NCBI RefSeq assembly: GCF_004362245.1
Contig: NZ_SNWM01000001.1
Location: 1,362,340-1,426,339 of the forward strand
Origin: Pedobacter duraquae
Lineage (GTDB): Bacteria > Bacteroidota > Bacteroidia > Sphingobacteriales > Sphingobacteriaceae
Length of the DNA: 64,000 nt
Reading direction: 5' to 3'
Part shown: positions 9,984 to 57,453 of the stretch, piece by piece
Layout of the letters: every line of letters begins with the position of its first letter
Position numbering within the stretch: the first letter of the stretch is position 1
Notes under the pieces: generated by a model
The model's database searches: none
Told to the model about the DNA's origin: nothing
What the model saw: only the letters and a program-made list of their open reading frames with translations
Position numbers and translations under genes: made by a program

Positions 9984-10045
9984 TTAAATATCTAGTAAAG
10001 ATAATAAAATCAACAAATTATAAAAGGTGATAATCTGAAATCAAA

Positions 10046-10474
10046 CTACTGCTTCACGTAGTGAGACTCAAAACCATCCGCAGCAATGACGCCAGTAAAA
10101 GTGACAAGTGCTTTACTGGACAGGTTGATAGGTTCTTTACTCATAGCGCTGGCAAAAGTCAATTGTTCGCCGCGGTTATACGTAATTGTAAAGTTAGATT
10201 CAGAATTATTGATTTTCTGCTTTTCCCGCTCTATTTTAAATGTTCCCCGATCAACGACTTTTCCTTCAACATAACGTTCATAATTTGCGCCACTAAATTT
10301 GAGTATATTGCCGTTACCTGCCGCGTAATCACTTTTGAGTCCCGCAATATTGCCACCATCTACACGACGCAGCTCCCAACTTCCTTCCAAAGTTGATTCA
10401 TTAGCTTCTTTTTTACAGCTTGAAACTGAGATTAGCAGGAACATGCTCAGCGATAGGATAAATAGGTTCTTCAT
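10046..10474 (-). CDS. small lipocalin-like lipoprotein, function unknown
   Basis: 142 residues with a lipoprotein signal sequence: MKNLFILSLSMFLLISVSSC, with the lipobox VSSC putting the lipidated cysteine at residue 20. The mature part begins KKEANESTLEGSWELRRVDG, where the GSWEL segment is typical of small lipocalin-like or META-type Bacteroidota lipoproteins that start with 'L-x-G-x-W'. Beta-strand-rich sequence follows. It is likely anchored in the outer membrane facing either side. No operon partner is obvious: the flanking genes are 62 and 149 bases away. Confidence 0.7.
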   Translation of the reverse strand: MKNLFILSLSMFLLISVSSCKKEANESTLEGSWELRRVDGGNIAGLKSDYAAGNGNILKFSGANYERYVEGKVVDRGTFKIEREKQKINNSESNFTITYNRGEQLTFASAMSKEPINLSSKALVTFTGVIAADGFESHYVKQ

Positions 10475-10623
10475 GGTTTTGAGTTTAATTTAAATCTGGT
10501 TTTCTAATTAAACGATCGAGACCTGACAAATGCTACAACGAAACGTAAATAATAATTTACTCAAAAGACACAGTAATGCATTGCTGTAAAACAACAAGCG
10601 CGAAAGGATGAACATGGATATTA

Positions 10624-11301
10624 TTAGGCTTCTACAGGTGTGCCACGTTGTGCTTTCAGGTTTCTGAACTGATAACCGGAAATAAGGTGTTTCTTCTCGT
10701 TAAATTGCATCAATCCAAAAGCTTCATCAGTTTCAAAAGTAGCAATAGCAGCCCTTGCTTTATCATAAGAACAACGGTATACCTCTGCAGCATTTTGTGT
10801 TTTAGCTATTTTTTCATGTGGATAGGCAGCCTTAAACTCATTCAATTCACCTTGAACCAATCTCTCCAATTTACCCATGGCTGTTGATTTAACGTCGAAT
10901 AACAGTTCCCAATCATCAAAGCCAGCTGAGCGTGACGCAGGCAAATTTAGTCCCTTGATACTGTTGTGCTTATCATTTGCTGAACCAACTTTAATCAATC
11001 CGCCTTTTCTAGAGCCAGCCAGGTAGATATAACCAGTAATATTTTCTCTAAGTGCTATTGCCAGTTTTGAAGGGTCGGCCTGCAGCCAATCTCCGCCTAT
11101 TGTTTGAAAGTTAAAACTTTCATCTTCACTGTAACCTGAAGCATTATAGGCGACTACTTTATTATTTTCAGACATTTCAGCTTTAAGCTCGTCTGAAAGC
11201 ACATTTCCTTGTGCATCGAATAACAAATCCTTTGCGATTTTGTGCTTTTTTATAAAGTCTTCCTGCTCTTTAGTTAGTGGGTTGTCAATAGTCATGGACA
11301 A
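10624..11301 (-). CDS. GIY-YIG (T5orf172-like) domain protein, possibly inactive
   Basis: 225 residues. The centre carries a GIY-YIG-type pattern: GYIYLAGSRKGGLIKVGSAN (residues 90-109), which aligns with the G-Y-x-Y ... G-x-x-K-I-G core of T5orf172/MUG113 proteins, then LPASRSAGFDDWELLFDV and a later KLERLVQGELNEF helix that could supply the family's glutamate. The catalytic arginine usually found about ten residues after the second core strand is not obvious (NDKHNSIKGLN here), so nuclease activity is uncertain. The first 80 residues match nothing I know. It lies alone next to a GC-rich structured gap. Family call moderate; function unknown. Confidence 0.55.
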   Translation of the reverse strand: MSMTIDNPLTKEQEDFIKKHKIAKDLLFDAQGNVLSDELKAEMSENNKVVAYNASGYSEDESFNFQTIGGDWLQADPSKLAIALRENITGYIYLAGSRKGGLIKVGSANDKHNSIKGLNLPASRSAGFDDWELLFDVKSTAMGKLERLVQGELNEFKAAYPHEKIAKTQNAAEVYRCSYDKARAAIATFETDEAFGLMQFNEKKHLISGYQFRNLKAQRGTPVEA

Positions 11302-11610
11302 TATTAGTCATATTTATTGGCTTTAGCCTGTTCTTAAGGGAAATATGGCTGAAAGAAAACATAACACCACATCAGATTCAAAACCAACATCACAAATAAT
11401 GACACGAAGGGAGGTCAAGCAAAACCAGGAAAATAAAATTTGTCTGTCAAGTGATTTTAGGAAATTAAAAAACCAATGACAAGTTAAAACAGTAAAATAA
11501 AAAAATAACACGCTAAACACGTCAAGTAAAACCAGTACAAGACAGTATAGAACACCCTCTAAGATGGGTCTGACCGAGTTTTTAAAGCACTATCAACAAC
11601 TCATAGGCAA

Positions 11611-11725
11611 ACGGGGCACACACGGGGGGTTGACGCGCCCTTGACGCGGCCTTACCCCGGCTAAAGGGCGCGTTAAGGCCGTACCGACCCCGTATCGGCC
11701 ATGCATGTGGGGACCGTCAACTAAC
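11611..11725. repeat. GC-rich cluster of overlapping inverted repeats
   Basis: By hand count 74 of the 110 bases 11611-11720 are G or C, far above the flanks. Arms seen: ACGCGCCCTT (11633-11642) with AAGGGCGCGT (11664-11673), 10 bp; CGGCCTTA (11647-11654) with TAAGGCCG (11674-11681), 8 bp; GTTGACG (11629-11635) with CGTCAAC (11715-11721), 7 bp; ACGGGG (11611-11616) with CCCCGT (11688-11693), 6 bp. A near-direct repeat TTGACGCG[C/G]CC occurs at 11630-11640 and 11641-11651, and the palindrome CATGCATG at 11700-11707. It could be a dispersed palindromic repeat, a structured RNA, or a protein-binding or recombination site. Confidence 0.6.
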
Positions 11726-11824
11726 AAAATAGTTAATATTTGCCTGGAATTCCCTCCAAATCTGCTCTAGCGATACTAGAATGAATGATTTGGGAAAGAT
11801 TAACCCATTTGAAGCGGTAGTATA

Positions 11825-11851
11825 AAAGCAAAAACCCGGTAGAATACCGGG
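11825..11851 (-). terminator. intrinsic terminator of the Crp/Fnr gene
   Basis: On the minus strand CCCGGT (11851-11846) pairs with ACCGGG (11840-11835) around a 5-base loop, and is followed by TTTTTGCTTTTA. It lies 47 bases beyond the stop codon of the regulator at 11899. Confidence 0.88.
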
Positions 11852-11898
11852 CCCTTTGTAATAACTATGTTTTGTATGTTTTAGAATTAACCAAACGA

Positions 11899-12492
11899 TC
11901 ATCTGCGCCCCATGCGCTTCCGGATGCGGCTTAGTGAAGGTCCCTCAATGCCAAGGTAGGATGCGATATGGTACAATTGAACCGATTGAAGAATATCTGG
12001 GTGTTGTTGCAGCATATCAACGTACCGCTCTTCTGCCGTCTTGAATAAAAGTAGTTCCGTATTATGCATAACAGCATGCAGAACAGTCTCAGCAAAGATC
12101 CGCCCAAAATGCTCCCAGGCCGGCGATGTCTTATACAGGTATTGAAGATCATCGTAATGTATATACAAAATCTCCGAGTTGGTCATAGATTCCGTATAAT
12201 ATGCACAGCTGGTCTGGCTGAGGAAACTCTTGTATGAGCTCATGAACTGATCATTTGAAAAAAACAGAATGTTTCTTTCCGAATTTGTCTGCTCATCGTA
12301 TTTGTATATCCTAAAAACACCTGATATTACAAAACCCAAATATTTACATACATTTTTGTATTCGTTGTAAAATTCGCCCTTTTTATAATCTTTTTCATAC
12401 CAGAAGGATTTCGACAATTCGAAGTCTTTTAACGACATACCAGAAATTTCTCTGATCACATTTTCCAGTCGCTCAATTTTTTTTATTTCCAT
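11899..12492 (-). CDS. Crp/Fnr family transcriptional regulator
   Basis: 197 residues, the size of small Bacteroidota Crp-like regulators. Residues about 30-120 form a cyclic-nucleotide-binding-type beta-barrel (GEFYNEYKNVCKYLGFVISG then RIYKYDEQTNSERNILFFSNDQF). The C-terminal helix-turn-helix is short but clear: LYHIASYLGIEGPSLSRIRKRM, with recognition helix GPSLSRIRKR; the protein ends at GRR directly after it. The barrel lacks the arginine-serine phosphate cassette of true CRP, so cAMP binding is doubtful. It has its own terminator downstream and is divergent from a small acidic protein gene, a possible target. Confidence 0.85.
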   Translation of the reverse strand: MEIKKIERLENVIREISGMSLKDFELSKSFWYEKDYKKGEFYNEYKNVCKYLGFVISGVFRIYKYDEQTNSERNILFFSNDQFMSSYKSFLSQTSCAYYTESMTNSEILYIHYDDLQYLYKTSPAWEHFGRIFAETVLHAVMHNTELLLFKTAEERYVDMLQQHPDILQSVQLYHIASYLGIEGPSLSRIRKRMGRR

Positions 12493-47488: not shown

Positions 47489-47620
47489 TTTCCGCCTAAT
47501 CTATACATACCATTTCCAGGATCTTTTCGTTAAACCTGTGTTATCAACACATGTTAACTTCTTATGTTAATAAGCCCAAAAGCTATAATTATATTCGTAC
47601 CAACCATACTTGAAATCCAA

Positions 47621-50600
47621 ATGCAAAAAAAATACCTCTTTATTCCGCTTTTATTAGCAGGCAGCATCACTGCCGGCTATGCTCAGATAAGTGCGGTAGT
47701 GAATTTAAATAAAAACTATCAAACCGGACTTGAATTACTTCACAACGAAAAATTCGGCGCAGCTGCTCAGCAATTTAAACTTGTAGAACAAAGTAGAGAA
47801 AAACCAGGTAGTCAACAAGAAAGTAATGCTGAACTTTCGCTCCTTAAGGAGAATGCGAAATTTTACGCCGCAGTATGTGCATTGGAATTAGGAAATAGTG
47901 ATGCAGAATCGCTCTTCATGAACTTTATTAAAGACTATCCCCTAAATCCAAATACAAAACTAGCCTATTTCCATGTCGGCAAATCTTATTTTGCCCAGAA
48001 AAACTACACTAAAACACTGGAATGGTTCGAGAAAACAGATCCTTCTGTACTCTCTAAAAAAGAGCGTGTCGAGTACCAGTTCAAACAGGGATATGCTTAT
48101 TTTTCATTAAAAAATAATGAAAAGGCAGAGCCACTTTTTGAAGCTGTCAAAAAAGAAAATTCCCAATATCAAGAAAGCGCCACTTATTACTTCGCTTATA
48201 TTAATTACCTCAACAAGGAATATAAAACTGCCCTTGCTAACTTTGAGAAACTTAAAGGATCAAAAACCTACGAGGCCAGCTATCCTTATTACATCACCTC
48301 TATGTATTATCTTGACGAAAGATATGACGATGTAATTGCGTATGCAGTACCTGTACTCAACAGTTCAAAACAACAGTTTGAGGCCGAAATGCAAAGCCTG
48401 ATTGCCGCCTCGTATTTTGCGAAGTCGGACTATAAGAATGCAGAAACATATTTTAGAAGCTATTACGCTAAAGATGCCAGTGCCACTAAAAACAATCTGT
48501 TCATTTATCAGTATGGCTATACACTATTTCAATTAAAGAAATACAGTGAGTCTGTTCCAGTATTAGAACAACTGAATACAGACGACGTATATCTCCAAAG
48601 TGGGATGTACACATTAGGCCGTTCGTTCCTTCAATTAAAAAATAAAGAAAAAGCACGAAGTGCTTTCTTCAGAGCTTCCCGTCTGGAATTTGACAAAAAT
48701 ATCCAGGAAGAGGCATGGCTCAACTATGCCCGTCTGAGCTATGAGCTGGAATTTAACCAGCAGGCACTCGATGCCACCCAGAATTTCCTGAAGCAATTTC
48801 CAAAGTCCAGAAAGCTTAATGAAGCAAAGACTTTACTTGGAGAAATCCTGCTAAGCAGTAAAAACTATCAGGCTGCAATTGATATTTTGGAAACAATAGA
48901 TGTTAAATCGCCGGAAGCCAAAGAAGCATATCAAAAGGTTACTTATTTCAGAGGCCTTGAGTTTTATAACGAGCGCGCCTTCCCGAATGCACTTTCTATG
49001 TTCCTGCGATCACAGAATTTTACTGAGGACGGTGAGATAACTGCATTAAGTACTTATTGGATGGCTGAAGCAGGCTATGAATTACGCAAGTTTGGCGAAT
49101 CGGTAAAAAACTTTGAAAGGTTTCTTAGCCTTCCCGAAGCCAGTAAAACTAAAGTATATAATTTTGCCAATTACGCCTTGGCATATGCCGCTTTTGAAGA
49201 TGAAAAATATCCGAAGGCCGCCACTTACTTCGAACGTTTCCTAAATGGTAATGATAAAGATCAAAAAACGATCAATGATGCCACAATCCGATTGGCTGAT
49301 GCCTATTTTGTTAGTAAAAGCTATCAGAATGCTTTGCTGAACTATAATAAAATCATCAGCAATAAATCGACTGGCGAGGACTATGCCCTTTTCCAACGCG
49401 GCATGATTCAGGGACTACAGGGTCAGGATGATGCGAAAATTAACACCATGCAAAGCTTGCTAAAACAATTCCCAACGTCGAACTATGCCGACGACGCAGG
49501 ATTTGAAACCGCATATACCTATTTCAACAAAGGTGACCTCGACAAATCTAAAACCGATCTCATTAATCTTGTAAGCCAATATCCGAGAAGTAGCTATGTA
49601 CCCAGAGCGCTGGTGACGATCGGATTGGTCCAATATAACCAAGACCAGGATGATGCCGCATTAGAGTCATTTAAGAAAGTTATCCGTGACTACGGAAGTA
49701 CTGAAGAAGCTAAACAGGCATTGGAGTCCATCAAAAACATTTATGTTGACAAAGGCGATTCCAATGGATTTATGACTTACGCAAGCAGCACACCAATAGG
49801 AAATTATTCCGTTGCGGAGCAGGACAACATCGTATTCCAGGCAGCAAATGCACGCTATTTAAAAGGCGATGCTCAAGGGACTGTTGAGGCCGTAAATGCT
49901 TATTTTGATAAATTCAAAAAACCTATACATGATAAGGAAGGTAAATTTATCCGAGCCGAATCATTGGTAAAATTGAATCGTTCTGCAGATGCAATTCCTG
50001 ACTATGAGTATATCCTGAACGATTGGACCAGCGATTATACCGAGCGTTCGCTTACCAGTATTTCTCAACTGTTCCTCAATGAAAAGAAGTATAATGAGGC
50101 CGTTGTTTATCTGAAAAGATTAGAAACTACCGCTGATTATAAATCGCACTATACCTATTCAATTAATAATCTACTGAAAGCCTACAGCGCATTGAACATG
50201 CCTGATGACATGTTAAAATATGTACAGCTGATTAAGGACTCCGACAAATCATCGGAGGAAGAGAAGAATAGTTCAGACCTCTACGCGGGTAAGGCTTACC
50301 TATTAAAATCAGATACCACAATGGCTGTTAAGGCTTTCGGCGCAGTGGTATCCAAAACTAAAACCCTCGCAGCTGCAGAATCAAAATACAACCTTGCAGC
50401 TATACAATATGCGAAAAGGGATTATAAGGCCTCCCTTAAGACGTGCTTTGATCTTATTAACAACATGCCATCTTATGACTATTGGGTAGCGAAATCTTTC
50501 CTACTACTAGCCGACAACTATATCGCGACCAAAGATCTGCTGCAAGCAAAAAGCACCTTGCTAAGTCTGATAGACAACTATGATGGCAAAGACGATATCG

Positions 50601-50638
50601 TGCCTGCAGCCAAAGAAAAATTAGAAAAAATTAAATAA
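47621..50638 (+). CDS. long exported TPR-repeat protein of the envelope cluster
   Basis: 1005 residues from the ATG at 47621, where a signal peptide begins (MQKKYLFIPLLLAGSITAGYAQ); the longer frame adds 19 residues before it. The rest is tetratricopeptide-like helical repeats over nearly the full length, for example YPLNPNTKLAYFHVGKSYF, FPKSRKLNEAKTLLGEIL and FPTSNYADDAGFETAYTYF. The 'hydrophobic-P-x-S-x-x-A' pattern resembles the CpoB/YbgF TPRs linked to the Tol-Pal system. It should be a periplasmic or outer-membrane scaffold. The barrel gene follows by 10 bases. Confidence 0.82.
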   Translation: MQKKYLFIPLLLAGSITAGYAQISAVVNLNKNYQTGLELLHNEKFGAAAQQFKLVEQSREKPGSQQESNAELSLLKENAKFYAAVCALELGNSDAESLFMNFIKDYPLNPNTKLAYFHVGKSYFAQKNYTKTLEWFEKTDPSVLSKKERVEYQFKQGYAYFSLKNNEKAEPLFEAVKKENSQYQESATYYFAYINYLNKEYKTALANFEKLKGSKTYEASYPYYITSMYYLDERYDDVIAYAVPVLNSSKQQFEAEMQSLIAASYFAKSDYKNAETYFRSYYAKDASATKNNLFIYQYGYTLFQLKKYSESVPVLEQLNTDDVYLQSGMYTLGRSFLQLKNKEKARSAFFRASRLEFDKNIQEEAWLNYARLSYELEFNQQALDATQNFLKQFPKSRKLNEAKTLLGEILLSSKNYQAAIDILETIDVKSPEAKEAYQKVTYFRGLEFYNERAFPNALSMFLRSQNFTEDGEITALSTYWMAEAGYELRKFGESVKNFERFLSLPEASKTKVYNFANYALAYAAFEDEKYPKAATYFERFLNGNDKDQKTINDATIRLADAYFVSKSYQNALLNYNKIISNKSTGEDYALFQRGMIQGLQGQDDAKINTMQSLLKQFPTSNYADDAGFETAYTYFNKGDLDKSKTDLINLVSQYPRSSYVPRALVTIGLVQYNQDQDDAALESFKKVIRDYGSTEEAKQALESIKNIYVDKGDSNGFMTYASSTPIGNYSVAEQDNIVFQAANARYLKGDAQGTVEAVNAYFDKFKKPIHDKEGKFIRAESLVKLNRSADAIPDYEYILNDWTSDYTERSLTSISQLFLNEKKYNEAVVYLKRLETTADYKSHYTYSINNLLKAYSALNMPDDMLKYVQLIKDSDKSSEEEKNSSDLYAGKAYLLKSDTTMAVKAFGAVVSKTKTLAAAESKYNLAAIQYAKRDYKASLKTCFDLINNMPSYDYWVAKSFLLLADNYIATKDLLQAKSTLLSLIDNYDGKDDIVPAAKEKLEKIK

Positions 50639-50648
50639 GATCCTGAAC

Positions 50649-52349
50649 ATGAGATTAAGTAACCTATTATATACTACCCTGATTTTATCTGCCACCGCAC
50701 TGACTACACAGGCACAGGATACAAAACCGACTGAAAAAAAGAAGGAAGAAAAGACGATTAATGAAGAGATCGAAGTAGTAAGACCGTATAAACCTGTACT
50801 CGCTGAAGCCGTAAAACTCAGACGTAGTCCAGATTTGAACGACAATAAAACCTATAAGGCAAAATTCAACTACACATTGACCGAACGTAAACTGGAGTTG
50901 AATTCTGACATCAATAAACTACAAGCCCAGCAGCTTACTGATGAGCAACGTGCAGAATTGATTAACAACTACCTTAAAGCAGGATTTGGTTCTGCAACAA
51001 CAACTTTAGCAGAAGGTTATTTCAGCACAGGTAATGACGAAGCTCTGCAAGCCGGAGCATATTTTAAACATTTCGGTCAGGAAGGCAAGCTTATCGGACA
51101 AAAGTATAATCAGCAACAACTAAGTGTCTTCGGAAGAAGTATTGGTGATCAGGCTACTTTTAGCGGCAAATTAAATTATCAGCGTAATGGTCTCTACTTC
51201 TATGGCCTTGATCAGAATAATCTCCCCGTAAACTTCAATCCCGAAAAACAAAGCTTCAATTTTATCGAAGCAGAGGGCGAGGTGGTTAATAAATTTAGTC
51301 CTGATGCAGATGCACTCAGCTATGCTGCTAAAGTAAATGGCTATTTATGGAATGATAAATTTAGCGCCAAGGAAAATGCGATAACGATCAACGGATACCT
51401 GAACAAGCGAATCAGTACGTTTAACCTCGGACTGGCTGCAGGAGTCGACTTTGGATCAACCAAAGATGCGCTACGCAGTGTCAGCAACAATATCTTGCGC
51501 CTAAATCCTTACATCCGCCTGCAAACCAACGGTATTAATATCACCGCCGGGATTAACTTCGTTCAGGAATTCGGGACAGCGTCAACAAGTAGGATCTTCC
51601 CTGCAGTTACCGCAGACTTTACTGTCATTCCAGATTACTTACAATTATTTGGCGAAGTTAAGGGTGACGTAAACCGGAATTCATTAAAACAGTTGACTGA
51701 CGATAATCCGTTTCTTAACAATAACATCGAAATAAGGAATTCAGTTGAAAAATTGAGCATTAGCGCCGGCATTAAAGGAACTGGTGGGCCTGGTTTTGGA
51801 TACAAGATAAAAGTATATCACAAAGAGATTACCGACATGCCTCTATTCGTAAACAACTTCTCCAGCGCAAATAAATTTGATGTGATTTACGACTTTGGGA
51901 CCATGAAACTTACTGGAATAGAGGGTCAAATTTCCGTACAAGTAAGTGATGATCTGAACTGGACCGGTAACCTGATTCTGGAGCAGTATAAGCCGGCCGC
52001 CGAAACAGAAAGCTGGTACAAGCCTCAGGCACGCTTAAACTCTAATTTACGCTATAACTTTAATAAACAACTAAGCTTTGACGCCGCGGTAGCGCTACAG
52101 GGACAAAGTAAAGCGAAGATATATACTTCTTCACCAGCTAGTCCTTATATACTGCCAAATACAGCAATAGAACGGGTTGTTAACGTTAAAGGTTTTGTCG
52201 ATTTAGGTGTAGGTGCAAATTACCAGATCAATCAGAAATTCTCTGTGTTTTTAAAGGCCAATAACTTGCTGAATACCGAAAATTCAAGATATCTTTATTA
52301 TCAGCCAATTGGCGTCAATGTTTTCGGCGGCTTAACCTATTCGTTCTAG
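50649..52349 (+). CDS. outer-membrane beta-barrel protein of the envelope cluster
   Basis: 566 residues with a signal peptide (first about 22 residues), a Lys/Glu-rich linker, then EEIEVVRPYKPVLAEAVKLRRSP. Alternating strands follow from about residue 100, ending in GGLTYSF, where the terminal aromatic residue is the usual outer-membrane assembly signal. It resembles the barrel part of TonB-dependent receptors but no plug domain is seen, so transport of a substrate is doubtful. It sits between the TPR protein and the HU/SPOR protein genes. It likely anchors the machine in the outer membrane. Confidence 0.75.
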   Translation: MRLSNLLYTTLILSATALTTQAQDTKPTEKKKEEKTINEEIEVVRPYKPVLAEAVKLRRSPDLNDNKTYKAKFNYTLTERKLELNSDINKLQAQQLTDEQRAELINNYLKAGFGSATTTLAEGYFSTGNDEALQAGAYFKHFGQEGKLIGQKYNQQQLSVFGRSIGDQATFSGKLNYQRNGLYFYGLDQNNLPVNFNPEKQSFNFIEAEGEVVNKFSPDADALSYAAKVNGYLWNDKFSAKENAITINGYLNKRISTFNLGLAAGVDFGSTKDALRSVSNNILRLNPYIRLQTNGINITAGINFVQEFGTASTSRIFPAVTADFTVIPDYLQLFGEVKGDVNRNSLKQLTDDNPFLNNNIEIRNSVEKLSISAGIKGTGGPGFGYKIKVYHKEITDMPLFVNNFSSANKFDVIYDFGTMKLTGIEGQISVQVSDDLNWTGNLILEQYKPAAETESWYKPQARLNSNLRYNFNKQLSFDAAVALQGQSKAKIYTSSPASPYILPNTAIERVVNVKGFVDLGVGANYQINQKFSVFLKANNLLNTENSRYLYYQPIGVNVFGGLTYSF

Positions 52350-52402
52350 CCCTTTTGCATTATTAATTGCTTGGTAAAGAATTAAAATTTATTTTTACCA
52401 GA

Positions 52403-54193
52403 ATGGAGATATTATCATATGTGGCCGAACTGATTCAATCCAGGAAAGAGATTGGCATTTTTGGACTGGGAACAATTTATAAAAAAAAATCTCCCGGAAG
52501 GTATGATACCGCCACACATACGTTTCTGCCCCCATGTTTTCAGATTGCCTTCAAACAAGAGCAATCTGAAAATGACCTATTAGCACGATTTATCTCAGCA
52601 CAAAGAAATATTTCACGCGAATCCGCTGATTATTTCATCAGTGTTTTTGTTAAAGACATTAATGATCAACTGTCAAACTTGGGTAACGCCGATCTGAGTC
52701 CTTTAGGGACGCTGACGGCTACCGAAGAATTGTTGAGGTTTGATCCAAATCCTGATTTTAAAACCGGCTTCGAGTTTTTTGGTTTACCTGCGGTGAAAAA
52801 CTCCACACCGACAGCTACGGAAAATGGACCTGCTCCATTACCTCTTCAAATAGAAACGGTTGAAAATATTACCGAGGAAGAATTAGCTGAAACTGATATC
52901 GCTGCTGAAAATCCGAATGATCAACCGGAGGAAATTACCATGCCTGAGGATGTTATCGAAGAAGTTCAGGAACCGGAAACCTCAATAGAGGACGAGCATA
53001 GTAATGCTGAGCCAATTGATATTCATGCATTGGAACAGATTGAAACTCCGGAATCAGAACTACTGCCAGAATCAGAGGAGGAAACCAATGTTGATCAAGA
53101 GCAAATAGAAATGCTTGAACAGGAATCTGAAACAAATGAATTTGTAACTGATAACGAGCCTAATCTTTTTGTAGAACCTGAAGCTGAAATTATTACTTCA
53201 GAAACAACTAAAGAAGAGGAGATCCAGCTAGAAAACCTTCAGGAGGAAGAAAATCCCGGACAGGATAGTCAAGAAGAGATATTTACTCCTTCAGATATTA
53301 CCTCAGAAACAACCACAGAAGAGAAGATCCAGCTGGAAAACCTTCAGGAAGAAGAAAATCCCGGACAGGATAGTCAAGAAGAAACATTCACATCTTCGGA
53401 AGTTAAGGAAACTTCAAAAGAAGATGATGAAATTTATGAGGAAATATCAGAGAATCCGATAGCTTACCAACCGGAAAACCAGGAACACGTCATTTCTGAA
53501 ATTCCGTTATTGATTGAGCAGGAAGAAACCATAGCTGAGGAAGAGTTTGCAGAACCCCTAGCGGAGTCTGTTCAGGTTCCACCGTCATTCTATGCAAGTA
53601 ATGGACCCATTCCTTCAGAAAGTACAATACAGTATACGATACAGGAAAATACGCAAAATACTGGAACTCCAACCTATGTAAAGGTACTAATCTGGATTAC
53701 GTCTGCGCTGATTCTCATTATGGTAGCCTATTTAGTTATTCCAATGCTTCCTGAATCATTTAGGAAACCTGCAATAACGGTTGATAGCACAAAGAAAAAA
53801 GCAACAGTAATAAAAACTCCTGTAATAGCTGATACTGTGACTGATAAAGATTCAATTACAGAAGCAGCCTCTGCTCCTGTAACAGTACCTGCCAAAAAGG
53901 AGGTACCGGTGAAACAAGCTGTTCCTGTGCAAACAAAAGTAAAGCTGGATACTGTCACTACCTATGAGATTATTGGTGCTTCTGTTGCCAACGAAAAAGA
54001 AGCGAACCAGTTTATCGCGCAAATGAAAAAAAGCGGTGTTAATGCTAAAGTTGTGACAAACTCCCCTGGTAAAAGACTAAAAATGAGTATTGCAACGTTT
54101 AAAGACCAGAAAGAAGCTGCTTTAGAACGTACGCGTCTCGAGAAAAAATTGAAAATTGACGGCATTTACATTTATATAAACAAACCAAAATAA
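52403..54193 (+). CDS. HU-CCDC81/SPOR membrane protein
   Basis: 596 residues from the ATG at 52403. Residues about 1-130 (MEILSYVAELIQSRKEIGIF start, GLGTIYKKKSPGRY) match HU-CCDC81-type domains, HU-like folds known to occur in Bacteroidota fused to SPOR. A Glu/Asp-rich linker (about 135-420) includes a 35-residue tandem repeat. One transmembrane helix is at about 427-449 (VLIWITSALILIMVAYLVIP). The C-terminus (about 515-596) is a SPOR domain, which binds denuded septal peptidoglycan. So the acidic and HU parts should be cytoplasmic and SPOR periplasmic. The exbB gene starts one base later. Confidence 0.85.
   Translation: MEILSYVAELIQSRKEIGIFGLGTIYKKKSPGRYDTATHTFLPPCFQIAFKQEQSENDLLARFISAQRNISRESADYFISVFVKDINDQLSNLGNADLSPLGTLTATEELLRFDPNPDFKTGFEFFGLPAVKNSTPTATENGPAPLPLQIETVENITEEELAETDIAAENPNDQPEEITMPEDVIEEVQEPETSIEDEHSNAEPIDIHALEQIETPESELLPESEEETNVDQEQIEMLEQESETNEFVTDNEPNLFVEPEAEIITSETTKEEEIQLENLQEEENPGQDSQEEIFTPSDITSETTTEEKIQLENLQEEENPGQDSQEETFTSSEVKETSKEDDEIYEEISENPIAYQPENQEHVISEIPLLIEQEETIAEEEFAEPLAESVQVPPSFYASNGPIPSESTIQYTIQENTQNTGTPTYVKVLIWITSALILIMVAYLVIPMLPESFRKPAITVDSTKKKATVIKTPVIADTVTDKDSITEAASAPVTVPAKKEVPVKQAVPVQTKVKLDTVTTYEIIGASVANEKEANQFIAQMKKSGVNAKVVTNSPGKRLKMSIATFKDQKEAALERTRLEKKLKIDGIYIYINKPK
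53192..53401 (+). repeat. 105-base tandem repeat inside the SPOR protein linker
   Basis: Two copies (53192-53296 and 53297-53401) in frame, each coding 35 residues that begin ITSETT and include ENLQEEENPGQDSQEE. The second copy differs by scattered substitutions only. Being a multiple of three, it lengthens the acidic linker without breaking the frame. Confidence 0.88.
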
Positions 54194-54194
54194 T

Positions 54195-54905
54195 ATGATC
54201 ACATTGCTTCAAGGTGCAGTAGATACAACAAAACAAATTATTGATACCGCAAATGCTGTAAAACAGGCGGTAGCAACTGCCCCTCCTGAATTACATTTTA
54301 TCGATTTGCTGTTTAAAGGTGGATGGGTAATGATTCCACTGGCATTTTTGGCTTTTCTTGGTTTGGTTATTTTTACAGAGCGTTACATCACGATCAGAAA
54401 ATCGTCGAAGATAGAATCTAACCTCATGCTTCAAATCAAGCAGTATATCCACGAGGGAAAACTCGATCATGCGATCACTGTCTGCCGGAACAACAATTCC
54501 CCATTAGGAAGAATGCTTGAAAAAGGGTTACGCAGAATCGGCCGGCCGATCAAGGATATTGAAGGTGCGATAGAAAATGTTGGTAAATTGGAAGTTTCGA
54601 AAATTGAAAAAAACATTGGTATCCTCGGCATCATCGCCGGTATAGCACCAATGCTTGGATTCGTTGGTACCATTGTCGGCGTAATCACGATATTTCATGA
54701 CGTGTCCATTAAAGGTGCCATTGAAATAGGTACAATTTCTGGTGGTCTTTATACTAAAATGATTACCTCTGCAACCGGCCTGATTGTAGGGATCATCGCC
54801 TACATTCTGTACCATATTCTAAATATGATGGTAGAACGGATTATTCTGAGAATGGAAACCGATGCAATCGAATTTATAGACTTATTGGAGGAACCAGGTA
54901 AATAA
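54195..54905 (+). CDS. ExbB/TolQ-type proton channel protein
   Basis: 236 residues, MotA/TolQ/ExbB family. A membrane segment at about residues 38-58 (GGWVMIPLAFLAFLGLVIF), a cytoplasmic loop, and two C-terminal segments (GIIAGIAPMLGFVGTIVGVI and TKMITSATGLIVGIIAYILYHIL) match the three-helix topology; the GIAPMLGFVGTIVG motif with its proline and glycines is diagnostic. It forms the pentameric stator with ExbD/TolR. It follows the SPOR gene by one base and overlaps exbD by one, so the block is tightly coupled. Confidence 0.92.
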   Translation: MITLLQGAVDTTKQIIDTANAVKQAVATAPPELHFIDLLFKGGWVMIPLAFLAFLGLVIFTERYITIRKSSKIESNLMLQIKQYIHEGKLDHAITVCRNNNSPLGRMLEKGLRRIGRPIKDIEGAIENVGKLEVSKIEKNIGILGIIAGIAPMLGFVGTIVGVITIFHDVSIKGAIEIGTISGGLYTKMITSATGLIVGIIAYILYHILNMMVERIILRMETDAIEFIDLLEEPGK

Positions 54906-55306
54906 TGAATTTACGCAAACGACAAAAAGCCACCGTTGAAGTTCATACTTCAGCATTGAATGATATCATGTTCTTCCTGATGTTGTTCTTCCTGCTTGCC
55001 TCTGCCGTGGTCAATCCTCAGGTAGTGAAACTACTTTTGCCGCGCTCAGAGTCAGGCCAGCAGTCTACCGCACAAAAGACAGTAACAGTTTCTATCACTG
55101 AGAACCTGGAGTATCTGGTAGAAAAACAGAAGGTAACCTTGGAAAGCATGAAGCAAACGATTGAGACTTATCAAAAAGCCTCTCCTGATCTTACCCTTGT
55201 ATTGTATGTAGCCCGCGGAGTATCTATTGAAAATACAATGGCCGTTTTTGATGTAGCAAACCAATTGAAATTAAAGGTTGTTTTAGCTGTAGAACCTAAA
55301 AAATAA
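54905..55306 (+). CDS. ExbD/TolR-type proton channel protein
   Basis: 133 residues, one membrane helix near the N-terminus (LNDIMFFLMLFFLLASAVV, about residues 18-36). The conserved proton-carrying aspartate is the D of LNDIMFFL. The remainder is periplasmic. It overlaps the stop of exbB and the start of the TonB gene by one base each (TAATG), so the motor proteins are translated in fixed order. Confidence 0.92.
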   Translation: MNLRKRQKATVEVHTSALNDIMFFLMLFFLLASAVVNPQVVKLLLPRSESGQQSTAQKTVTVSITENLEYLVEKQKVTLESMKQTIETYQKASPDLTLVLYVARGVSIENTMAVFDVANQLKLKVVLAVEPKK

Positions 55307-56121
55307 TGACTTACCCTAACGAAGAAAATAATTATCCGAAGGCACTGGCCATATCCTCTGCCATTATGATTCTTCTGGTCGCCCTAAGCTTTTTTATTGC
55401 TATAGGTAGCTTCCAGCCAGAAGAAACTCCGGGTATGGGCGGCATTGTCGTCAATTATGGAACTTCTGTAACGGGCATGGGAACAGATTACACAAGTATC
55501 GAAGAGCCTTCTGCCGATCCCAACGCTAATCAAAAGATGCCAGACAAGGTAGTTCCGGTTCCTCAGAACACACAAACATCTACCCCTCAAACCTCTAACC
55601 AGGATATTCAGACACAGAATTCTGAAGATGCAGTGAGCATAAATACTAAAAAATCGACTACTAAGACCACGCCGAACGCAGCCGTAGACCAAAAGCCTGC
55701 TGCTCCTGCAATCAATCAAAATGCACTTTATAAAGGCAAAGCAAACTCAGGCACCGGGGGCGGTGATGGAACAGGAACAACTCCAGGAAACCAGGGAAGT
55801 GTGAATGGGGATCCCCTATCCAATAACTATGGCGAGGGTGGATCCGGTTTTGGTGATAAGCCTATTGAACTTAGAAAATTCACAAACCTGATAACGCCAA
55901 GAGATGATGGTCAGAAAACAGGCAAAATAGCTGTCCGTATTACATTCAATAAAGAAGGTGTGGTTATTAATGCAACACCAGGAGTTAAGGGAACAACGCT
56001 TAGCGACCGTGATCTTTGGCAGAAATGTAAAGATGCGGTAATGGGCGCCCGACTCAGTGAATCAAGCGCAGGGCCTGATGTTCAGAATGGCGTAGTTGTT
56101 TTCAACTTTAAAGTTAAATAG
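55306..56121 (+). CDS. TonB/TolA-like energy transducer
   Basis: 271 residues. One membrane helix at about 12-32 (ALAISSAIMILLVALSFFIAI), then a long Gln/Thr/Pro/Ala-rich periplasmic linker, a Gly-rich stretch (about 145-185), and a C-terminal fold (about 190-271) with FTNLITPRDDGQKTGKIAVRI and FNKEGVVINATPG. The C-terminus resembles TonB/TolA carboxy domains. It should link the motor to the outer membrane, most likely to the barrel or TPR protein of this cluster. No terminator follows before folC. Confidence 0.82.
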   Translation: MTYPNEENNYPKALAISSAIMILLVALSFFIAIGSFQPEETPGMGGIVVNYGTSVTGMGTDYTSIEEPSADPNANQKMPDKVVPVPQNTQTSTPQTSNQDIQTQNSEDAVSINTKKSTTKTTPNAAVDQKPAAPAINQNALYKGKANSGTGGGDGTGTTPGNQGSVNGDPLSNNYGEGGSGFGDKPIELRKFTNLITPRDDGQKTGKIAVRITFNKEGVVINATPGVKGTTLSDRDLWQKCKDAVMGARLSESSAGPDVQNGVVVFNFKVK

Positions 56122-56163: not shown

Positions 56164-57453
56164 ATGAATTATCAAGAAACCCTGGACTACCTCTACAGTA
56201 AACTTCCAATGTTTACCAGAATCGGAGAAGCCGCATTAAAAAAAGATTTACATAACACGATCGCACTTTGTGCACAACTGGGTAATCCCCAGGATCATTT
56301 CAAAACAATCCACATTGGCGGAACTAATGGAAAAGGTTCTACCTCTCATATGTTGTCGGCAATTCTGCAGGAAGCTGGATATAAAACCGGACTGTACACA
56401 TCCCCTCATCTTAAAGACTTCCGGGAACGCATAAAAATCAATGGGGCAATGGTCCCCGAATCTTTTGTCACTGATTTCGTAGAGACGCAAAATCAATTCA
56501 TTACTGAACTGCAGCCTTCTTTCTTTGAAGTTACTGTGGGTTTGGCTTTCTCCTATTTTGCTGCCGAAAAAGTCGATGTCGCTATCATCGAAGTAGGGCT
56601 GGGCGGTCGTCTGGATTCCACAAATATCATCCATCCAGACCTATCTGTAATTACAAATATCAGTCTTGATCACACCAATATCCTTGGTAACACGATAGCA
56701 GAAATTGCTTATGAGAAAGCAGGGATTATTAAATCTGGCATACCAGCAGTTATCGGAGAAAGAGTTGAAAACTCCGCTGATGTGTTTATCAATAAAGCAG
56801 CGGAAGTAGGCGCAGAATTACATTTTGCATCTGAAGATATCCGTTTAATCGATAGCAACAAAACGGGTGAAATGTTGCAGTTAACGTTAACGGATCGCGA
56901 CCACAACGAGCTATACAAAAATCTCGAACTCGATCTGACAGGCATGTATCAACTAAAAAATGTCCGGACTGTAGTTGCTGCCGTAATCGAATTAAGGAAA
57001 ATTGGATATCGTATTTCCGACAAACATGTGTATGCTGCCTTAAAAGAAGTAAAGACACTTACAGGTCTGCAAGGTAGATGGCAACAGCTAGGTACAAATC
57101 CAACGGTAATCTGTGATACTGGTCATAATGTTGCCGGCATCCAGGAGATATTACAAAATATCAACCAGACACCACATCAGCACTTGCACATGGTTATCGG
57201 CTTTGTAAAGGATAAAGATATCAGCAGTATTCTTGCTATGCTTCCTAAAGATGCGATTTATTATTTCACCGAACCACAACTTGAACGCGCACTCCCGGCG
57301 GCTGAGTTAGCAGAAAGATCTGCAGAGTTTGGGCTTCAGGGCCAAACGATAATCAATGTACTTGATGCGTTGGAAACAGCCAAAACCGGAGCCGCTCAAT
57401 CAGACCTTATTTTTGTAGGTGGAAGTACCTTCGTTGTAGCGGAAGTTTTATAA
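56164..57453 (+). CDS. folC: dihydrofolate / folylpolyglutamate synthase FolC
   Basis: 429 residues, Mur-ligase-type fold. ATP loop IGGTNGKGSTSHM (about 51-63), SPHLKDFRERI, EVGLGGRLDSTNI, ITNISLDHTNILG and a C-terminal domain with CDTGHNVAG are intact. It adds glutamate to dihydropteroate and folates. With pabB elsewhere in the window, two steps of folate synthesis are present. It has its own -7 box, 42 bases after the TonB gene. Confidence 0.95.
   Translation: MNYQETLDYLYSKLPMFTRIGEAALKKDLHNTIALCAQLGNPQDHFKTIHIGGTNGKGSTSHMLSAILQEAGYKTGLYTSPHLKDFRERIKINGAMVPESFVTDFVETQNQFITELQPSFFEVTVGLAFSYFAAEKVDVAIIEVGLGGRLDSTNIIHPDLSVITNISLDHTNILGNTIAEIAYEKAGIIKSGIPAVIGERVENSADVFINKAAEVGAELHFASEDIRLIDSNKTGEMLQLTLTDRDHNELYKNLELDLTGMYQLKNVRTVVAAVIELRKIGYRISDKHVYAALKEVKTLTGLQGRWQQLGTNPTVICDTGHNVAGIQEILQNINQTPHQHLHMVIGFVKDKDISSILAMLPKDAIYYFTEPQLERALPAAELAERSAEFGLQGQTIINVLDALETAKTGAAQSDLIFVGGSTFVVAEVL

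Follow-up and report, generated by a model that had tools for sequence, protein, structure and literature searches.

Six genes on one strand

The stretch of DNA considered here (the window) is 64,000 nucleotides long and comes from Pedobacter duraquae. Six plus-strand genes at positions 47621 to 56121 had been read in a first-pass annotation, made from the letters alone, as one envelope cluster joining a TPR scaffold, a barrel, an HU-SPOR membrane protein and an ExbB-ExbD-TonB motor. All six frames were confirmed at these coordinates (Table 1), and the gaps between the genes (10, 53, 1, -1 and -1 bases) match exactly those given there. The proposed families TPR, HU-CCDC81, SPOR, ExbB and ExbD are recognized by Pfam; the barrel and the sixth protein match no family on their own. 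We are evenly divided on a proposal developed below, namely that the six genes encode a single proton-driven trans-envelope machine, similar to Tol-Pal, which would pull the outer membrane inward at division.

Table 1. Genes and features of the cluster and its surroundings, with positions in the window
Feature	Length (amino acids)	Position	Strand	Basis and remarks
TPR protein	1005	47621..50638	+	Pfam TPR repeats; signal-peptide-like N-terminus (by eye); probably periplasmic
Outer-membrane beta-barrel, TonB-receptor type, predicted plugless	566	50649..52349	+	AlphaFold2 (AF2), Foldseek, sequence profile
TonB-box-like segment, barrel tail residues 38-53, NEEIEVVRPYKPVLAE		50760..50807	+	Conservation in 52 aligned proteins
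HU-SPOR membrane protein	596	52403..54193	+	Pfam and hydropathy; topology inferred
ExbB/TolQ-type motor protein	236	54195..54905	+	Pfam MotA_ExbB (PF01618), tree
ExbD/TolR-type motor protein, membrane aspartate D20	133	54905..55306	+	Pfam ExbD (PF02472)
TonB-like putative force arm	271	55306..56121	+	AF2, Foldseek, TonB_C in aligned relatives
folC, frequent downstream neighbour, probably outside the machine		56164..57453	+	Gap of 42 bases after the TonB-like gene

Upstream of 47621 the TPR frame continues to an ATG at 47564, so that there are two candidate starts, and the HU-SPOR frame likewise extends back to a TTG at 52367. No terminator-like site was found at any gene junction, the scan as a whole being at chance level (12 against 9.2 +- 2.7). 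The window ExbB shares up to 86% identity with that of Pedobacter cryoconitis. Those near relatives of the barrel for which organism names were shown are all from Pedobacter, except one from a compost metagenome.

Recurrence of the gene order

Loci, genomes and families carry our own labels (L, G and f). The 80 named loci, L114 to L193, are the best of 577 confirmed and are biased to near relatives. In 33 of them genes for TPR protein, barrel, HU-SPOR protein, ExbB, ExbD and TonB follow one another in this order, and the full order is found in Pedobacter, Mucilaginibacter, Sphingobacterium, Hymenobacter and Rufibacter. It also occurs in f8 (L207), f12 (L206) and f14 (L204), where there is SPOR and no HU domain over the Pfam cut-off. 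Three Pedobacter loci (L119, L121 and L127) have no TPR or barrel gene on the strand of the cluster.

For a wider view, a set of 118 genomes from the phylum was searched with profiles of the barrel (A1), the HU-SPOR protein (A2) and ExbB (A3). Linkage was scored on one strand, within 3.5 kilobases for barrel and ExbB and 1.5 kilobases for barrel and A2 match; the counts are lower bounds, the weakest matches being left out. Barrel and ExbB are linked in at least 48 genomes, barrel and A2 match likewise in at least 48, A2 match and ExbB in at least 43, and all three in at least 40 genomes from at least 12 of 30 families. The A2 profile also matches plain SPOR or HU proteins (in 118 of 118 genomes), and in f8, f12, f14, f27 and f28 it is mainly the SPOR side of the profile that gives the linked match. 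Family f16 was scored as unlinked, yet in L205 its SPOR gene is picked up by a local profile. The joint function had been made to depend on the genes not being kept apart: some families do keep them apart and others do not.

TolB, Pal and the barrel in the phylum

Curated TolB and Pal models were run on the same 118 genomes, and TolB (at E 1e-70) and the barrel (at E 1e-40) were sought in 395. TolB is over its cut-off in 24 of the 118 and Pal in 26, all in f15, a family with 26 sampled genomes. In the larger set 81 genomes have TolB at E 1e-70 (74 of them over the cut-off), every one in f15; the barrel is present in 247 genomes of 40 families, none of which is f15. This family is Chlorobiaceae-like, because its TolB is 88% identical to that of Chlorobaculum, and in one of its genomes (G106) motor, arm, TPR gene, TolB and Pal lie in one locus (L211). 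Matches below the cut-offs are common at E 0.001, in 115 of 118 genomes with the Pal model and in 118 of 118 with the TolB model. The source genome of the window (G000) has no TolB at E 1e-70, its best match being at E 4.0e-22 and below the curated cut-off; its best Pal match (TIGR02802), in a frame of 459 amino acids, scores 85.3 bits (cut-off 125.35), and there are 14 matches below that cut-off.

The recurrence without pal that the first-pass annotation had suggested looking for is thus found: the order recurs in genomes that lack TolB and Pal over the curated cut-offs. The contrast between TolB and barrel fits a replacement and is no proof of one. Membership of the cluster in Tol-Pal itself was rejected, TolB and Pal being below their cut-offs.

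The motor

ExbB and ExbD are both over the Pfam cut-offs (PF01618 and PF02472). With NCBIfam the window ExbB is over no cut-off; the best model is TolQ (62.8 of 221 bits) and exbB gives 34.9 of 206. The aspartate D20 is kept in all 115 ExbD-type proteins collected from the loci. In a maximum-likelihood tree of 67 ExbB/TolQ proteins, rooted at the midpoint, 24 ExbB from clusters and 24 from trios share one side of a branch with support 91/86. Outside that branch are 15 other Bacteroidota ExbB, one Chlorobiaceae ExbB, Chlorobiaceae TolQ, and both TolQ and ExbB of E. coli. We predict from this tree that the cluster ExbB belongs to a clade separate from TolQ and from the ExbB of ordinary nutrient uptake, deep joins being unsure. 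An old gene order with later losses would be the simpler account of the distribution, because clusters sit on several branches of the ExbB clade. A Bacteroidales trio with two ExbD genes in a row was noticed in L171 (about 10001-12400).

The same genome has a second motor set, ExbB-ExbD-ExbD-TonB (contig C5, L112 7355-13185), with genes for a phosphate-binding-type protein and then a TPR protein (both named by eye) behind it; it looks like an ordinary Ton set. With so typical a set elsewhere, the idea that the cluster is itself the ordinary Ton system was rejected. The motor postulated earlier stands and, by its predicted separate clade and the second set, is not the ordinary Ton motor of the genome.

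The TonB-like arm

Taken alone, the sixth protein is matched by no Pfam or NCBIfam family at E 0.1. TonB_C was matched in 8 of 12 aligned relatives, the window protein not being among them. Its AF2 model has a membrane helix at residues 10-34, a linker at 57-184 mostly below 50 in predicted local distance difference test (pLDDT) score, and a confident C-terminal domain at about 190-271. In Foldseek the top hits are C-terminal domains of TonB (6i97_D, E 5.7e-3), with those of TolA ranked below them. The earlier assignment of the sixth gene as TonB is borne out in so far as the relatives and the model give a TonB-type C-terminal fold, and for the same two reasons the suggestion that the protein is not TonB at all was set aside. 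According to the available part of PMC12204202, TolA and TonB are indistinguishable by sequence and predicted structure alone; hence we use "TonB-like" as a name for a fold and not for a task.

The barrel and its tail

The AF2 model of the barrel, built on 52 sequences, has a mean pLDDT of 79.6. Residues 107-566 form the barrel, its exact strand count not being settled by the model, and residues 16-42 and 49-105 are below 50. The 50 best Foldseek rows are all TonB-dependent receptors, including BtuB, FepA and PfeA, with template modelling (TM) scores by query of about 0.5-0.6, and the sequence profile also matches receptor barrels. The protein alone has no Pfam family; no plug family was found in any of 16 aligned barrel proteins at E 0.1, where there was one weak receptor-barrel match. 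We predict from the model a barrel without a plug and with a disordered tail. A search for plugless TonB receptors, judged by titles and abstract starts, gave no relevant paper.

Residues 39-53 are the best-kept stretch of the loose tail. Position 41 is I, V, F or L in 51 of the 52 aligned proteins and position 43 is V or I in 50; the mean information is 2.24 bits for residues 34-60, 1.64 for 61-105 and 1.87 for the barrel. This conserved segment lies in or beside the stretches with pLDDT below 50. Its rows read EEIEVVRPY, EEIVVTTAY, DSIDIVRDY, QDIEIRSEF, LPEFVITGT and similar, a pattern which we take to resemble a TonB box.

The HU-SPOR protein

Comparison of the N-terminus with HU-CCDC81 profiles, as suggested before, gives 36.5 bits for HU-CCDC81_bac_2 (cut-off 35) and 24.7 for HU-CCDC81_bac_1, just below its cut-off of 26. 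SPOR (PF05036) is found at residues 521-590 with 24.9 bits (cut-off 21). A membrane helix near residues 428-446 would leave two HU-CCDC81 domains inside and SPOR outside. In the A2 alignment, 21 proteins collected by their HU domain, a simple hydropathy scan finds one membrane helix in 17; HU-CCDC81_bac_2 is present in 21 of 21 and HU-CCDC81_bac_1 in 13. The A2 profile matches solved SPOR domains, among them that of a sporulation-specific amidase and that of FtsN (1uta). SPOR domains bind denuded septal glycan (PMC6895207, in its available part).

The third gene differs between families. In L205 to L209 (f16, f12, f8, f27 and f12) Pfam sees SPOR and no HU; in L204 (f14) SPOR is accompanied by an HU match that stays below the cut-off. 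The same is true of L210 (f17), which has in addition a separate HU gene between the barrel and SPOR genes. As judged by these profile matches, SPOR is the steady part of the third gene and HU is missing in several families. The free HU gene of L210 encodes 93 amino acids with an arm region, its HU match covering residues 1-85 of 90; with the HU part of the SPOR gene it makes an HU pair within this cluster (L210 8921-12211). A second, short SPOR protein of 145 amino acids was seen in L113 (4543-4980), immediately downstream of what looks by eye like secA.

Burroughs, Aravind and colleagues reportedly worked on HU-CCDC81 domains (2017). By title and abstract start, nothing relevant was found in the HU-CCDC81 literature, nor any relevant paper on SPOR with division in Bacteroidota.

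The TPR protein

No lipobox cysteine was seen in the TPR protein. It passes the YbgF/CpoB model TIGR02795 with 161.3 bits over seven stretches (cut-off 90.1). The likeness to CpoB noted earlier is unspecific, the BamD model TIGR03302 being passed too (86.7 of 81.4 bits) and the CpoB model PRK10803 reaching 47 of 383. Both the YbgF/CpoB and the BamD matches likely reflect shared TPR repeats.

Neighbouring genes

In 46 of the 65 named loci with enough sequence, folC lies within 800 bases downstream of the TonB-like gene, a neighbourhood without obvious reason. Because of this frequency and the gap of 42 bases in the window, the transcription unit may count seven genes, folC included.

Other neighbours were noted in single families. 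In an f2 genome a PorP/SprF-like gene (by eye) follows TPR, barrel and HU-SPOR genes (L050 8250-9260), the motor being on another contig (L200). In an f21 genome ftsK-, lolA- and lysylphosphatidylglycerol-synthase-like genes (by eye) are directly upstream of the barrel (L052 3800-7952). A lone HU-SPOR gene stands beside a dprA-like gene (by eye) in f4 (L035 8379-10688 and L038 8452-11181), and in several f4 genomes a gene for a hotdog-type thioesterase (by eye) is also beside it.

A possible machine and its alternatives

If the six genes act together, the ExbB-ExbD motor would likely drive the TonB-like arm with protons, and the arm would bind the disordered tail of the barrel. Since there is no plug to move, the pull would act on the barrel and hence on the outer membrane. 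The SPOR protein would likely place the machine at the septum, on wall stripped of stem peptides, and the TPR protein would serve as a periplasmic scaffold. The whole might replace Tol-Pal in Bacteroidota proper, perhaps with PorE (see below) as a partner in the role of wall-binding lipoprotein. In this proposal the six genes, their recurring order, the conserved strand that resembles a TonB box and the aspartate of the motor are read from sequence; models or trees predict that the plug is missing, the tail disordered, the arm of TonB type and the motor clade separate.

A more specific suggestion can be made, though tentatively and with slightly less than even confidence: that Bacteroidota replaced Tol-Pal by using a TonB-dependent nutrient receptor stripped of its plug as a force handle, a private TonB motor, and SPOR to aim the machine at the septum. 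If true, the outer membrane in this phylum would be constricted by Ton parts and not by Tol parts. For the Bacteroidota, which include major gut and soil bacteria, the cluster is a testable candidate for outer-membrane constriction without a recognizable Tol-Pal, in which the roles of handle, arm, motor and wall sensor are each assigned to particular proteins. The barrel class would split force from transport within the Ton family.

Several observations weigh against the proposed machine. None of the three linkages is among the matches listed in f3-f7, f10, f13, f15, f20, f22, f25, f26 and f30, and in f21 no TPR gene was seen next to the barrel. Pfam sees SPOR in 16 of the 21 A2 proteins, and in L207 and L208 it is below the cut-off of 21 (18.3 and 20.9). 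By subtraction, 67 of the 395 genomes lack both TolB and the barrel at these E thresholds. Moreover, the contrast between the two sets one clade against the rest, which descent alone may explain. Some branches of the tree are long, and TolQ and ExbB of E. coli are joined in it, so its deep joins are unsure. For the arm, Foldseek gives no match at E 0.001 or better. The tail is called TonB-box-like from a pattern judged by eye together with conservation; L210 lacks such a strand and L199 fits poorly.

The same genes could instead make a dedicated Ton-type transporter. The barrel would then be a pore, gated or open, through which some substrate is imported or exported at the expense of the cluster motor, and the SPOR and TPR proteins would only position it. 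The barrel is of receptor type, several of its relatives are labelled "TonB-dependent receptor", some with PF00593 or PF28590, and in Myxococcus the TonB-dependent transporter Oar is needed for PopC secretion (PMC6434023, in its available part). However, such a pore would have no plug to gate it, and a SPOR protein is often alongside. Nutrient TonB receptors occur in many copies per genome, whereas all but one of the 247 genomes, across the 40 families, have a single match to this barrel (246 genomes; E 1e-40, with scores taken for three candidates in each). We regard a transporter as unlikely, though worth keeping in mind.

Alternatively, TPR-barrel, SPOR protein and motor trio might be three envelope units with separate functions that share an old operon. 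Scattered units with their parts kept are found in f4 and elsewhere: in G029 and G103 (f4, probably Flavobacteriaceae) TPR-barrel, HU-SPOR and ExbB-ExbD-TonB-folC are at separate places. The 49 more distant loci L145 to L193 point the same way, ExbB and ExbD being present in 49, TonB with them in 41, the SPOR protein in 8, and TPR with barrel in 7. The presence of folC as a plain neighbour also agrees with this. Against it stand the identical order in distant families and the pairing of a barrel with a TonB-box-like tail with its own TonB-like arm, and we consider independent units rather improbable.

The HU part had earlier been thought possibly to touch DNA, and so to link chromosome and envelope by coupling clearance of the nucleoid to constriction. 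HU-family domains are present throughout the A2 set, which was collected by them. L204 and L210 have basic HU parts, with net charges of +5 and +4 and isoelectric points (pI) of 9.9 and 9.6, and L210 has its extra free HU gene in the cluster. However, the window HU part has a net charge of -3, it is net negative in 20 of the 21 A2 proteins (pI 4.1-6.5 in those), and the free HU protein of L210 is acidic (net -6). Alignment with HU chains of solved structure stops at residue 51-59, apart from three chains that are numbered differently, and the DNA-clasping arm presumably lies beyond that point. Together with the missing HU in L205 to L209 this makes contact with DNA doubtful, L204 and L210 being the cases in its favour. 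Where present, the HU domains are more likely a docking site for proteins than a DNA clamp. Least probable is that PorE alone does the Pal-like job, as proposed for it in PMC12204202 (available part), with the cluster serving another task such as support of gliding or of type 9 secretion. In favour of this, PorW/SprE is weakly matched by the TPR protein (43.8 of 250 bits); against it, PorE is a lipoprotein for which that part of the paper gives no motor, and the two ideas are compatible.

Comparison with known systems

The earlier likening of the locus to a Tol-Pal-like trans-envelope device holds in part: barrel, TonB-like arm and SPOR would make a coherent force-transducing set, which is not a member of Tol-Pal. 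No paper describing the six-gene locus was found by titles and abstract starts, most subscription papers being outside the coverage. The available part of PMC12045153 does not mention Tol-Pal; that of PMC12204202 does not mention the locus, and the word SPOR is absent from its main text.

With Tol-Pal the cluster has in common a proton motor of the ExbB/TolQ and ExbD/TolR kind (TolQ being its best NCBIfam model, far below the cut-off), a periplasmic arm with one helix, a TPR protein in the operon and a part of wall-binding type. Unlike Tol-Pal, it has no TolB propeller and no Pal over the cut-off, and its outer-membrane part is an integral receptor-type barrel. Binding to the wall would be through SPOR on an inner-membrane protein, the arm is of TonB type by fold, and the motor is predicted to lie apart from the TolQ of E. 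coli and Chlorobiaceae, with deep joins unsure. The Ton system resembles it in the ExbB-ExbD-TonB trio and in a receptor-type barrel with a TonB-box-like strand; it differs from the cluster, where the barrel is predicted to be plugless and SPOR and TPR proteins are frequent company, and it is the second motor that resembles ordinary Ton.

Another stand-in for Tol-Pal has been proposed in the same phylum. PorE is described as a putative CpoB-TolB-Pal fusion with this role in Bacteroidetes (PMC12204202, as far as available); unlike the cluster it is a lipoprotein with no motor described there, and it is not encoded in the cluster. SPOR proteins of the FtsN type are likewise comparable, the profile of the cluster protein matching the solved FtsN domain; the cluster protein is set apart from them by HU-CCDC81 domains that are probably inside and by the motor genes that adjoin it.

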